This document shows, in pieces, positions 2,674 through 47,092 of a DNA stretch of 47,189 nucleotides. Source of the DNA: Planctomycetota bacterium (GTDB lineage: Bacteria; Planctomycetota; UBA8742; JACQVU01; JANLHZ01). Made by a program: the position numbers and the translations under genes. The DNA is taken from the NCBI GenBank assembly GCA_024653775.1, contig JANLHZ010000196.1, positions 1 to 47,189 on the forward strand, written 5' to 3'. Positions within the stretch are counted from its first letter, which is position 1. Each line of letters opens with the position of its first letter. Under the pieces are notes generated by a model that made no database searches, was not told the DNA's origin, and saw nothing but the letters and a program-made list of their open reading frames with translations.

Positions 2674-2752
2674 AGGAGCGCAAATGAGTGACTTGAACGT
2701 TCTGTACAGGCGAAGTCAGTCAGTCAGTCAGTCAGTCAGTCAGTCAGCGTAA
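2674..2752 (+). promoter_or_regulatory. Candidate phase-variable start region, (AGTC)8.5 tract
   Basis: AGGAG at 2674-2678 sits five bases before ATG 2684, the best ribosome site for the downstream gene. The ATG frame crosses 8.5 copies of AGTC (2714-2747) and stops at TAA 2750-2752. The signal-peptide frame of the next gene starts just after the tract but has no ATG, GTG or TTG of its own between the in-frame stop at 2694 and ATG 2862. Losing one 4-base unit, or gaining two, joins ATG 2684 to the signal peptide and the long frame. This is the geometry of a slipped-strand contingency locus, here in an OFF phase. Collapse or expansion of the tract during assembly is the main alternative. Confidence 0.7.
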
Positions 2753-4625
2753 ATCGTCGCTCGAATTCAGACTGACGACTCTTTTAACGTCGCTACTGTT
2801 CATTTCTGTAGCGTCCATTTCTACAGCGGAGACTGACGATCTCGATTTAACGGGGATATGGATGCTTTCCCTCGATCTTCAAGGCGGAACCTGGGAAATA
2901 GATGAAGCGAACATGCTCGCGATAGCGCCGCAGGGAGACACACCAGCGCTTCGGTGCGAGCAAACCGGAAACTCGCTCGCTTTTGTTGACGTACCGGATG
3001 GAATCGAACTTTCTGGATATATCATGGGGGATAGCGTCACGTTGAACCAGCATCAGGTTCTTACCGATGAGGAAACGACCTCCGTTTATGACGCGACTGC
3101 AACTCTGTCGGGTATCCAGTCCAAAGGGAAAACCGCTTCCGGCACTATCGTAATCGAGGGAACTTACACTGGCTTCGGCTACCTCACCTATCAAAGCGGT
3201 GTGGATCAGTTTGGAAACCCGATCATAGTCACCGATAACTGCACCTGGAACGGCGTCGTTACCGGTTACATCGTCCCTTCAAACACGGTTCCGGAGGAAG
3301 ACTCATTACCGTACGATCTCGGCGTAAAGCGAATCGATATGGCGGTGGTGTCGAAAGAAGCTGATGACGCGATGGACGCGGAGTTTGCAACTCTTGTGGA
3401 CGAACTTGAATTTGTGGAAGACAAGAACGAGCGCGCTCAAATCGGTAACCACAGCAAAGAAAACGTCCTCGTTATCAGAAACGACGCGCGCGTAGGAGTT
3501 GAAGAAATCCTTGAAGAAGGGCGCGACCGCTGGCGGGATAGACAACTCCGAGGTCGTCCCGACCAGGTCGACCGCGTCGCGTGGACAGGGTTCGTTCAAG
3601 CGGGCGTTTCGACGCTGAAGCAGATTCAGGAAGCGTGGCTTACAACAAATCAAAACATCCAGAACATAGTCAAGAATCCACCGCCAAACGAAGAACCTGC
3701 GCCGGGAACGATTACCGACCACAGCGGCGATTTAACCGCAAACATCGGTCAGACCGCAGCCCGAGATCCAGACGGTGAGTACTCCGCTGGTGGTCAGACT
3801 TTCGAAGAAGGCGGAAAAATCTCTATCAACTTCGTTGTTACGTCAGCGGAATGTCTTCCGCTGACAGTGATCATCGTAGCGCCAAAACTTATATGTATAA
3901 CCAGGGGCGGCGCGATACAGGAGAATCTGCGTTCACCCAATATACAGGTTACTGATGGAAATGACAGAACAATTATTCAGGCTCCTTCCAGCCTGTCTAT
4001 TTCTTTTATTTTAAACCGTTCAAGAATTAGGCCATGCGATGGACAGCTTTTCTTTACAGTCGATATAATCGTAACCGATAATTGTGGATCAAGGTTTAAA
4101 TATAGTAAACGATTTCCGACAACAAAAGATGCAACTAGCGATTCGCCTTATCCAATAGTCGCTGAAACTGATAGCCTCGAAGATAGGGACGTTGGAGTTC
4201 CTATTGAGATCACGCACATTCTTGACCCGCAAGGGCAAAAAGAGGACAGTTTTAAAATTAAAATTAGCCCAGACATCAAGGAAACCGATCCTGAATGTCA
4301 ACCATTAAGATGCACCACTTTTTTTGAGATCTACGCCAAGTTTTTGATAGAGGGTGTTCCATCACTTCAAGGGTTGGATACAGGGATAGGATCGTTGGGT
4401 ACAACAAATATAAGTTCTGATACATCGGTTTGCGAGTTAGAAACTTACATTAAACGTAGCGCGGTTGATCTGAAATACAAAGTTGCCCTCATCAATAACC
4501 CGACTTGGGAAAGCGCTTATCCTGAAGGAACCGACATTCTTCTTGAAATAACAATCAAAGTTCTTGTAGTTGTGACTAACAGGTGCGGTGACATGCGATC
4601 GTTTTATTACGTCTATACACCGTAG
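2697..4625 (+). CDS. Secreted protein of unknown family, N-terminus out of frame with its start
   Basis: The open frame runs from 2697. The first internal ATG is 2862 (587 residues), but translation upstream of it in the same frame gives a good Sec signal: a basic stretch (QRKSSLEFR), a hydrophobic core (LTTLLTSLLFISVA) and a likely cleavage at STA/ETDD. The real start is therefore probably ATG 2684, separated by the AGTC tract. The mature protein begins with a beta-rich, lipocalin-like region (residues about 1-140 of the ATG-2862 product), then an acidic helical linker, a proline-rich spacer, and two similar beta domains that contain VTDNCG and VTNRCG. I recognise no family. It is A+T-richer than its neighbours and is followed after 31 bases by a second secreted-protein gene. 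Confidence 0.75.
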   Translation, partial: TFCTGEVSQSVSQSVSQRKSSLEFRLTTLLTSLLFISVASISTAETDDLDLTGIWMLSLDLQGGTWEIDEANMLAIAPQGDTPALRCEQTGNSLAFVDVPDGIELSGYIMGDSVTLNQHQVLTDEETTSVYDATATLSGIQSKGKTASGTIVIEGTYTGFGYLTYQSGVDQFGNPIIVTDNCTWNGVVTGYIVPSNTVPEEDSLPYDLGVKRIDMAVVSKEADDAMDAEFATLVDELEFVEDKNERAQIGNHSKENVLVIRNDARVGVEEILEEGRDRWRDRQLRGRPDQVDRVAWTGFVQAGVSTLKQIQEAWLTTNQNIQNIVKNPPPNEEPAPGTITDHSGDLTANIGQTAARDPDGEYSAGGQTFEEGGKISINFVVTSAECLPLTVIIVAPKLICITRGGAIQENLRSPNIQVTDGNDRTIIQAPSSLSISFILNRSRIRPCDGQLFFTVDIIVTDNCGSRFKYSKRFPTTKDATSDSPYPIVAETDSLEDRDVGVPIEITHILDPQGQKEDSFKIKISPDIKETDPECQPLRCTTFFEIYAKFLIEGVPSLQGLDTGIGSLGTTNISSDTSVCELETYIKRSAVDLKYKVALINNPTWESAYPEGTDILLEITIKVLVVVTNRCGDMRSFYYVYTP

Positions 4626-4656: not shown

Positions 4657-6009
4657 ATGAATAAAAAAACTATCAAATTGATAGTGGCAATAGCGACCAT
4701 TCTGTTTTTGATTTTTAGCGGTGATAGCGAAGAACTAAACAATGGTTTTGTCCTCGCAAAAGAAAACGACTTTGGGAATTTAAACCGAAGGTGGATATAT
4801 CAGGAGAAAGCTACATTAATTACTCCTGAACAGATCCCGAAGTCTGCAACTGATTTACAATCCGAAGTGGATTCTGGAGAGGTTTTATTGCTTGATTCTA
4901 CTCAACATCGAGTTCCCCAAGACGTAACAATCAATGCTGATCAAGACTCGCAGAGCACTGACAATGACTGGACTGGCTGGCCTGGCGACACACCGTGGGA
5001 CATCGCAATATACGGCTTCGAATATGATGGATCCGCCGTTGAGGATGCTAAGATTTTTTTGATGGGAACATGTGAGTATCACGGTATAAATTACAACGAT
5101 GATAGCATACTTATTCCGGAGCTTTGCAATTTTCTGCGCGGCAGCCAATGCACATTGAGTAACGACATCGGATACAATGATGAATACGGAATAGGTCAAC
5201 GGGATTATGCGCTCGGATACGGTGTAGATTATGTCAGAGTCGACGCGGTAAGGCGAATTTCACGGGTTAAAACCGATGAGGTTGAATCGGCGCTTAGAGA
5301 ATTCGTAACCGAATCGCTCGACAGTGAATCTTGGCCTCTATCGACTGCAGAGGCGATTACTATTCTATCGAAAGAGTTTGGGTCATATTCATTTGATGAG
5401 CTTGAAGCGATCTCATTTATGAAGATTGAACCTTTCATAGAATTGCGATTGGCGGATGCCTTGCAATATGTCCCCCCATTGACTGAGAATCAAAAAGATA
5501 GATGGGTTGTCTGGATTGATCGAGCTTCGAATTACAATGTACGCTATCTTTTAGCTCGCTCCTTTTTCGTGTGCGCAGGTGAAGACGCGGTCGAATTCTG
5601 CTTGAGCCTGATTAGACGCGATTTAGCGCAGATTCAAGATCGCTGGGTTGCTGGAACGATTAAAGGGCTGATATTTGAAAATCTGATAGTAAGACATTGG
5701 GAAAAAAGCGTCGTAAGAGAATTCATCCTCGAAAACATTCGTTTTGGCGACCGGAAGACCATTGACGATATTTTGTTCAGTTTCAATGTTGTCGCCGAGA
5801 AGGAAAGAGGCGATTTCGCCAACACCGGAATAATCGAAGCGGTGCGTGAACGCGCACTTTCACTGCGAGACGCTTCCGATGCCTGGTCCGCCATAGAATT
5901 TACGTGCAGGTACGCTGCAAGGGACGATATTGGAGTCCTGATGATCCTGAAAGATCGATTTCCGGAGTTCGCCGAGTATATAGATAATGCGATCGAGTAC
6001 TTGCGATAA
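4657..6009 (+). CDS. Secreted hypothetical protein, helical C-terminus
   Basis: A 450-residue protein starting at ATG 4657, chosen because AGGAGAGG lies directly upstream and the product opens with a signal sequence (MNKKTIKLIVAIATILFLIF). An in-frame ATG at 4588 would overlap the upstream gene and bury the signal. Residues about 100-190 are aromatic- and glycine-rich with several cysteines. The C-terminal half (about 270-450) is mostly helical and looks HEAT-like, but I recognise no family. It is probably co-transcribed with the 2697-4625 gene and shares its low G+C content. Both lie between the intact SUMF1-domain gene and a broken copy of that gene's end, which suggests the pair arrived or moved as a cassette. 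Confidence 0.7.
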   Translation: MNKKTIKLIVAIATILFLIFSGDSEELNNGFVLAKENDFGNLNRRWIYQEKATLITPEQIPKSATDLQSEVDSGEVLLLDSTQHRVPQDVTINADQDSQSTDNDWTGWPGDTPWDIAIYGFEYDGSAVEDAKIFLMGTCEYHGINYNDDSILIPELCNFLRGSQCTLSNDIGYNDEYGIGQRDYALGYGVDYVRVDAVRRISRVKTDEVESALREFVTESLDSESWPLSTAEAITILSKEFGSYSFDELEAISFMKIEPFIELRLADALQYVPPLTENQKDRWVVWIDRASNYNVRYLLARSFFVCAGEDAVEFCLSLIRRDLAQIQDRWVAGTIKGLIFENLIVRHWEKSVVREFILENIRFGDRKTIDDILFSFNVVAEKERGDFANTGIIEAVRERALSLRDASDAWSAIEFTCRYAARDDIGVLMILKDRFPEFAEYIDNAIEYLR

Positions 6010-20751: not shown

Positions 20752-20884
20752 TGGGTCAGGGGTTAGGGGTTAGGGAGCAGGGAGCAGAGAGCAGAGAGCA
20801 GAGAGCAGGGGGCGGGGAGCAGGGAGCAGGGAGCAGGGAGCAGGGAGCAGAATTTAATTCTTAATTCTTAACTCTTAATTCTTA
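20752..20884. repeat. Heptanucleotide tandem tract with G-quadruplex potential
   Basis: Heptamers of the type GGGTTAG and GGGAGCA (and AGAGCAG) run from 20752 to about 20850, followed by TTAATTC/TTAACTC heptamers to about 20884. The plus strand has many closely spaced G-triplets. It lies immediately upstream of the cysteine desulfurase start and reaches the stop codon of the fapA-like gene. Confidence 0.85.
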
Positions 20885-32887: not shown

Positions 32888-33000
32888 GAATCCTCGATCT
32901 ATGGTCCTCGATCCTCGATCCTCCGATATGACATGCATTCCACATTCGCATGACAAAATCATGAAGATCATTTTCTATGATCTCCCGTGTTGAGTCGAGC
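32888..33000. other. Heptamer tract and unassigned sequence
   Basis: GATCCTC-type heptamers at about 32890-32925 follow the toroid gene stop; the rest up to the candidate RNA shows nothing recognisable. A promoter for the RNA might lie here but I cannot point to one. Confidence 0.5.
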
Positions 33001-41229: not shown

Positions 41230-41263
41230 AATTACGAATTACGAATTACGAATTACGAATTAC
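41230..41263. repeat. Heptamer tract (AATTACG)n
   Basis: Nearly five uninterrupted copies of AATTACG, immediately upstream of the hflC start. The same heptamer occurs inside the ABC-ATPase gene at about 46856-46885. ACTATCC-type heptamers continue at about 41270-41297. Confidence 0.9.
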
Positions 41264-45553: not shown

Positions 45554-47070
45554 CTAACTCCCACATTCCGAAGAAAATTTCGAGTCTGGACTCGCACGGA
45601 GGAAGTACTCGGCGTGCGTCAGGAACCGAAGCGCAACCAGCCTCGCGAGGGTTTCCGCATGACTACGGACGAAAGCCGCTGCGTCAGCGTTTTGAACGGA
45701 TTCGAACGCGCGTCGGTTCGCGGAACTGCGTTCCGACCATCTCTGCGCGAATTTCTTCGTCGCGCGGACGACTCGCGAATCCTCTGTTCGCGCCATCAGG
45801 TCCGACGCGACTTGCGACGATCTGAAACACCTGCCGCGAAGCGAGGCTTCGTCTTCTCCTGGGTAGAGCGCTTCGAGCACCTTCCGGGCGTGTTTGTCCG
45901 GGGCGACGCAGCCGTGGCGGGTGAAGCCGCTGCGTTCGAGGAATCCGGTGAACCTCCCCATGGCAGTCTGGCACTCGATCCACATTCCTGGCATTCGCGC
46001 GAGGCAGCGTTTGAGGAACCACGAACTCGCCCCCGTCGCGCGATACGGCTCGTCGATGACGAACCTCGAAAGCGTCCTTAGGTTTTGGTTGAGCCAGAGC
46101 GCTTTCGTTTTCGCATCCGACTTCGCGTGCGCGGGAAGGAGCTTCGTTCGTAGCGAGTGCTCGATGCACGGATACGCGAACACCGCGATGCCGACGTCCT
46201 GGTCCCGGTCGCGCAGGAGGAAAACCTTGTAGACGAATCCGAGCCGTCCTTCGCGATAGTGTAGCGGCGCGAAGATCAGGTAGTCCGAGCGTCTCCCGTC
46301 ATGGATTTCGAGACGATCCGTCAGACTGAACGCCATTTTAGATTCTTGGTTTTCGATTTTTGAACTTAGGTTTTCTCCCCGTTCCCGGATTTTCGGAGCA
46401 CGCAGCCCGCGCATGGTTATCACCACGTCCGGCTGGAGATCGCGTTCAACGGTGTGGTCGCAGGTGGCGATGACGATCGCCACACCGGGATGGTCGTCGT
46501 GCCAGCGTTTAATCGAGAACGCGATCGACTTGCGCGTGACTTCGTCGAGACTCGATCCGAATTCGTCGAGGAAAATACAGACGTCGGAACCCGATCTGAC
46601 GGATGAACCCAGGTACGTCTCGGCTTCCGCCTTTTCGAGCATCAGGGCGAGTTCCGCGCGATACCGCTGCCCGGTGGAGAGCGCGCGGATGGGTTTCAGC
46701 CAGGTAAGCGCGTCCGCAAGTCCAGCGCGAACGAGTTTTCGAATCCGCTCCTCCGCGCTGCCGCTGACGAGTTCGATCAGGATTTTCGATTTTTCATTCT
46801 CGATTTCTGAAACGAATCCATCCACCAGGGCATCTTCCGGGTGAAGCGGGTAATCAATTCGTAATTCGTCATTCGTAATTGACGAAGCAGCCAGCTTTTC
46901 CCGGACCCGCTCGCGCCCGTGACGAGGACGATTTTGCCTCCGATTTCCGGCGCCTCGAAGCCGGGCGCGATTTCGAAGATCCTCGCGTGATCCGTAAGTC
47001 CGAATCCCGCGACCGCGTCCGCGAGTTCCGCGCTCTCCGGCAAGTCTATTTCGAATGACATTAGGCCCAT
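45554..47070 (-). pseudogene. ABC-type ATPase/acetyltransferase (COG2401-like), frameshifted
   Basis: Two frames make one protein. The first, 47070 to 46777, has Walker A (VLVTGASGSGKSWLLRQL). The second, open from upstream of ATG 46825 to 45554, has HPEDALVDGF, the ABC signature ALSTGQRYRAELAL and Walker B VCIFLDEFGSSLDE, then a GNAT-like half (FVIDEPYRATGASSWFLKRC, MGRFTGFLERSGFTRHGC). ABC ATPase fused to a predicted acetyltransferase matches the COG2401 type. The frames differ by two bases, and the break coincides with heptamers CAATTAC-GAATGAC-GAATTAC-GAATTGA (about 46856-46885). Gain of one 7-base unit or loss of two would restore one frame. It is dead, phase-variable, or a sequencing error. 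Confidence 0.75.
46856..46885. repeat. GAATTAC heptamers at the frameshift
   Basis: Four imperfect heptamers inside the COG2401-like gene, the same unit as at 41230-41263. Further AAAATCG-type heptamers lie in the same gene at about 46779-46812 and 46335-46362, both in frame. Confidence 0.8.
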
Positions 47071-47092
47071 GGAATAATTAATAATTAATAAC

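Follow-up and report, generated by a model that had tools for sequence, protein, structure and literature searches.

Most of what has been described of repeat-driven phase variation comes from pathogens and commensals that live with hosts. Among the closest of the described systems are the opa genes of Neisseria, a multi-copy family encoding exported proteins, where each copy possesses a repeat tract in its leader and where changes in unit number set the reading frame, giving rise to different combinations of ON genes (PMC3745409, PMC5953494). The mod gene of Haemophilus influenzae carries an AGTC tract which is associated with translational switching (PMC3711429). The phasomes of Campylobacter and Neisseria, as surveyed using PhasomeIt, comprise, in each genome, numerous genes whose SSRs are located in the promoter or in the 5' part of the coding region (PMC6321876, PMC5953494), with tetranucleotide tracts there subject to a threshold of 5 units (PMC5953494).

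Considered here is a stretch of 47,189 nucleotides from a Planctomycetota bacterium (‘the window’), in which an AGTC tract separates a start codon from the frame of a signal peptide. By far the best explanation for this arrangement, and one that we consider very probably correct, is slipped-strand, SSR-mediated translational phase variation. AGTC units, that is, would be gained or lost by slipped-strand mispairing during replication, i.e., within living cells, with the number of units determining whether the ATG at 2684 shares a frame with the signal peptide and an approximately 600-residue, presumptively exported protein.

As with opa, multiple copies of genes for putatively exported proteins are involved, nearly every gene with its own leader-region tract. 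All opa copies make use, however, of one pentamer, CTCTT, located inside of the leader, whereas here the unit varies by subgroup and is found mostly before the signal peptide. The CTCTT leader repeat is not among the units found in this family, which are AGTC, ATCT, CA, C, and G, along with TC and C in a second genome (G001, below). Homology with Opa is not indicated either, as judged by the lack of Pfam and NCBIfam matches and of PDB sequence matches above noise. With mod the likeness is one of the AGTC unit as well as of translational switching, but mod is a DNA methyltransferase whereas the window protein is predicted to be exported and has no Pfam match, whether to a methyltransferase domain or otherwise. 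The likeness to PhasomeIt phasomes is one of many SSR genes per genome and of tract classes in common; those phasomes, though, are of host-associated Campylobacterota and Proteobacteria, while here it is a planctomycete and a new protein family which are involved.

No described case of phase variation in Planctomycetes was found in a library of open-access papers, a search which falls short of proving absence, just as the earlier note on this DNA had known of none in such a lineage. Approximately 20 exported proteins that are switched by repeats in a planctomycete would extend this device to another phylum, and would permit as well a test of what drives repeat switching outside of the usual hosts.

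Reading frames about the AGTC tract

The switch region consists of the following features.

2674..2678, + strand: Shine-Dalgarno AGGAG (from sequence)
2684..2752, + strand: start codon and short OFF-frame open reading frame of 22 codons, with TAA at 2750-2752 (from translation)
2714..2747, + strand: putative switch tract, (AGTC)8.5, which would be OFF as assembled and ON at 7.5 or 10.5 units
2697..4625, + strand: body reading frame, open, with stop at 4623-4625 and no ATG, GTG, or TTG before ATG 2862
2748..2828, + strand: signal peptide RKSSLEFRLTTLLTSLLFISVASISTA (from translation; retained in paralogues)

The array is 100% perfect over its 34 bases, and at 8.5 units exceeds the PhasomeIt tetranucleotide threshold. 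Within the window, AGTCAGTCAGTC occurs six times versus zero expected (100 dinucleotide shuffles), and a first-order Markov estimate puts the expected number of perfect 34-base tetranucleotide arrays, of whatever unit, at about 1e-9 for the 5.4 Mb genome. Translation from ATG 2684 yields MSDLNVLYRRSQSVSQSVSQSA. In-frame fusion of that ATG to the body comes to 645 codons given the loss of one unit and to 649 codons given the gain of two. The tract, that is, sits in a 5' coding region where unit changes toggle the frame between ON and OFF, which is what is looked for with SSR-mediated translational phase variation. Cleavage of the signal peptide is expected before ETDD, as judged by eye, and GGAG-type sites can be read upstream of the start codons of most paralogues.

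The earlier note had described the Shine-Dalgarno sequence and ATG 2684 as cut off from the signal-peptide frame by the AGTC tract, which is exact to the base, and both the stop which it placed at 2750 and its rejoining of ATG with signal peptide and body upon subtraction of one unit or addition of two are as computed above. Its further statement that the signal-peptide frame has no ATG, GTG, or TTG is true from 2697 to ATG 2862, though CTG codons are present in that frame at 2772 and 2796, with no visible ribosome site. The body of 587 residues to which the note referred stands as an open frame but not as a protein starting at ATG 2862, a codon which is not plausible as the natural start because the body would then begin inside of the first beta strand that is predicted by structural modelling.

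Tract-bearing paralogues in the source genome and in a second genome

Where the earlier note treated this locus as a single one, it instead is one of a family of 19, and of a wider set of tracts. The source genome (331 contigs totalling 5.4 Mb, completeness 96%), as read from its sequence, carries approximately 20 related genes for putatively secreted proteins, nearly all with their own 5' repeat tract. Eighteen of these, window gene included, were found by protein search and a nineteenth (C45) by profile search, to which can be added 5' fragments at contig ends. In nearly every member a ribosome site and start codon are followed by a simple repeat, then by the signal peptide and the conserved domain, and lastly by a divergent C-terminus. 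In 15 of the 19 the repeat separating the start codon from the signal peptide is a long one, with the repeat unit (AGTC, CA, poly-C, or poly-G) tracking the subgroup.

AGTC subgroup (5 genes): C293 (the window gene), 8.5 units; C257, ~6.25; C189, 4.5; ~3-unit remnants in C291 and C149
CA subgroup (4 genes: C316, C170, C33, C253): 8.5, 8.5, 8.5, and 11.5 units among the four
Poly-C subgroup (4 genes: C275, C41, C231, C63): C6-C10
Poly-G subgroup (4 genes: C216, C154, C309, C227): G7-G11
C45: ATCT x4.75 inside of the hydrophobic core of the signal peptide; reads ON

The remnant-tract genes, C291 and C149, read ON as well. The remaining member, C147 (L021, near 1546), is without a tract, and its signal peptide is separated from its body by a TAG in frame. 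Tracts of this kind form the ends of two contigs, C153 (a near-copy of the C227 5' end) and C67, and a third contig, C94, has a tract near its end. On the reverse strand of C94, near position 100 and at the contig edge, an ATG is followed by C11 and then by a hydrophobic segment, which probably represents another switch gene. Since the repeat unit has turned over while the position of the switch has remained fixed, selection seems to be acting to keep the switch rather than the repeat sequence.

As assembled, just one of the 15 long-tract genes is ON (C189) and the other 14 are OFF. Were frames random and independent, then no more than one ON gene among the 15 would be expected with a probability of 0.019, and therefore the OFF state seems to be over-represented in, that is, favoured by, the assembly consensus. 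In 13 of these 14 OFF genes a change of one or two units, up or down, gives a full-length signal-peptide fusion, the exception being C63, where an in-frame stop follows the tract and unit changes cannot restore the full-length frame. Some of the poly-G genes (C309, C227, C154, and C216) already have a possible start in the body frame, be it GTG, TTG, or a second ATG, and their OFF calls therefore are less sure. For most genes of the family, automated gene prediction would lose the signal peptide or put the start codon in the wrong place, and such systems therefore may be overlooked in genomes derived from metagenomes.

When 392 genomes of the phylum were searched with a profile of the shared domain, matches were confined to the source genome, genome G001, and, weakly, one other. 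G001 belongs to the same order but to another family, and is the sole same-order genome in the comparison, a set with no same-genus or same-family relatives; no family member was found in named relatives by genome-contig and viral-contig searches. Within G001, C342 has (TC)11.5 inside of its signal peptide and is ON over 699 codons, whereas C298 has (TC)12.5 and is OFF, with a stop after 21 codons, these two being 95% identical in DNA over 300 aligned bases yet one TC unit apart. In a second set in G001, C274 (C9) is ON, its frame running past the signal peptide with no stop before the locus ends; C361 (C10) is OFF with a stop after 35 codons, and C176 and C362 (both C10) are OFF. The comparison with relatives that the earlier note had proposed was run in this manner, i.e., on paralogues and on G001, and in it tract lengths differ between near-identical copies and the frames match the ON and OFF states. 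As to the source lineage more generally, no 16S rRNA gene was found in the genome assembly, and the best hits of its leucyl-tRNA synthetase were too scattered to be of use for placement. PF07596 (DUF1559) is expanded in planctomycetes, and its 57 matches in G042, of the same phylum, make Planctomycetota the likely phylum, with none in the source genome.

Constraint on OFF genes and alternative explanations

The window gene and C189 have near-identical flanks on both sides of the tract, but 8.5 versus 4.5 AGTC units, and OFF versus ON frames. Across close copies, all of them paralogues, unit number varies as 8.5 versus 4.5 (AGTC), 12.5 versus 11.5 (TC), and C10 versus C9. Such length differences, like the tract, the frames, and the recurrence in paralogues, are directly observed; what the paralogue differences show is that tracts change over evolution, with no rate implied.

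For the window gene versus C189, dN/dS is 0.08. Among CA genes (all OFF) it is 0.07-0.22, among poly-C genes (all OFF) 0.15-0.32, and among the more diverged poly-G genes 0.26-0.54 where dS was estimable. As these are pairwise Nei-Gojobori values from the N-terminal 230 codons, several with dS >1, they are indications of constraint rather than precise rates. Values are mostly 0.07-0.3 across pairs, OFF-OFF pairs included, and the bodies of OFF genes are under purifying selection.

That constraint bears on the possibility that these are decaying pseudogenes, i.e., dead genes in which the tract is what a frameshift left behind, as one might suppose given that 14 of 15 long-tract genes are OFF and that in-frame stops are found in C63 and C147. 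Such decay is highly improbable, as in addition to dN/dS being low even among OFF-OFF pairs, frames of several hundred codons remain open, ON siblings exist (C189, C291, C149, and C45, along with C342 and C274 in G001), and the subgroups each acquired a repeat of another kind at one and the same position.

There is very little likelihood, too, that full-length protein is obtained from the OFF sequence with the DNA unchanged, that is, by programmed ribosomal frameshifting or by RNA polymerase slippage. Poly-G and poly-C tracts are able to provoke slippage, and an excess of OFF genes would fit with slippage-dependent expression. AGTC, CA, and TC repeats, however, are not known as slippery sites, the offset varies both among and within subgroups, and close ON/OFF pairs are whole units apart.

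A third possibility, that tract length represents an assembly or sequencing error and the true gene simply is in frame, derives some plausibility from homopolymer consensus lengths, which can be off by one, and from contigs such as C153 and C67 breaking at or near such tracts. It nonetheless is hard to credit, as an ordinary read spans a 34-base array, as numerous genes, some of them in a second genome, have such tracts, and as errors of length do not account for the presence of a long repeat ahead of the signal peptide and after the start codon. Least probable of all is a start at CTG 2772 or 2796, or at ATG 2862, with the tract as irrelevant 5' sequence, since, notwithstanding that the body frame continues open beyond the tract and includes those CTGs, neither CTG has a ribosome site, a protein begun at ATG 2862 would be without its signal peptide and part of its first strand, and the segment from ATG to tract is kept among AGTC paralogues and, in ON genes, shares the frame of the body.

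Slipped-strand phase variation, for its part, as suggested by the earlier note's description of a phase-variable contingency locus, is supported by recurrence with different units, by length differences between close copies, and by conservation of OFF frames.

Encoded protein, neighbouring genes, and other repeats

The protein and the gene that follows it can be described thus.

2853..3278, + strand: N-terminal domain conserved among the paralogues, modelled as a barrel-like set of eight beta strands (AlphaFold2 on 19 paralogues, mean pLDDT 84; paralogue alignment)
3306..3674, + strand: predicted bundle of three long helices (AlphaFold2)
3675..4622, + strand: C-terminal region, divergent among paralogues, beta-rich, of low model confidence (paralogue comparison, AlphaFold2)
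4657..6009, + strand: downstream gene, 450 aa, with N-terminal hydrophobic segment, 31 bases after the stop

Neither the window protein nor its family has anything above noise in Pfam, NCBIfam, PHROGs, or PDB sequences, in keeping with the earlier note's inability to name a family. The eight modelled strands suggest a barrel, and the N-domain model has no fold match at E <0.001. Matches of the whole model to RbmA and WxLIP folds were set aside as weak (E ~4e-5, TM at most 0.27, low-confidence C-terminus), with no functional claim made from them. The family proteins presumably are exported and surface located, and may have a binding or surface role.

Diverged relatives of the C-terminal half of the downstream gene are found directly downstream of paralogues C257 and C291, which suggests that switch gene and downstream gene are a conserved pair. 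The upstream neighbour, at 549-2591, encodes 680 residues and ends in a domain resembling formylglycine-generating enzyme (PF03781).

An unbiased scan for repeats covered 1.27 of the 5.4 Mb of the source genome. Both of the tetranucleotide arrays of at least 4 units found in it (the window gene's and that of C45) belong to this family, as too does the one CA array of at least 7 units. Three further genes, C6 (L045), C19 (L198), and C271 (L067), encode MR-(N/D)-W-(L/I)-x-V-C followed by G9 or G10 and then by a lipobox-like sequence. All three are OFF, and they are candidates for a second switch family, of lipoproteins; C195 and C175 are relatives of this group that are without a long tract. In addition, (TG)9.5-12.5 tracts are located 51-62 bases before the ATG of two genes in C258 (L329 3939 and 5356) and of one in C308 (L330, minus strand, 5630). 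These are secreted-protein genes which resemble one another, and their tracts are candidate promoter or 5' UTR switches, i.e., of a transcriptional type.

Nearly every gene of the 19-member family, with its own tract, common exported domain, and diverse C-terminal region, would switch such that cells of one clone display different subsets of the family. One can envisage, tentatively, that the exported family (switch position kept, unit replaced several times, most copies silent), the lipoprotein family, and the promoter-type (TG)n set together make up a repertoire for clonal surface variation, in an uncultured and perhaps free-living order, which may function in evading phages, predators, or hosts.

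Poly-G abundance was considered as a signature and rejected, as relatives often have equal or greater numbers of such tracts; it is position rather than number which is distinctive. Also rejected as switches of this type were the tracts of C303 (inside of a repeat-rich coding frame), C323 (intergenic), and C50 and C163 (both inside of coding frames). The window also contains 7-base tandem repeats (AGGGAGC, TTAATTC, AATTACG, and others) at 20753-20884, 32890-32923, 41230-41263, 46781-46880, and 47073-47091, some of them intergenic, and heptamer arrays of at least 4 copies number 13 in the 1.27 Mb scan.
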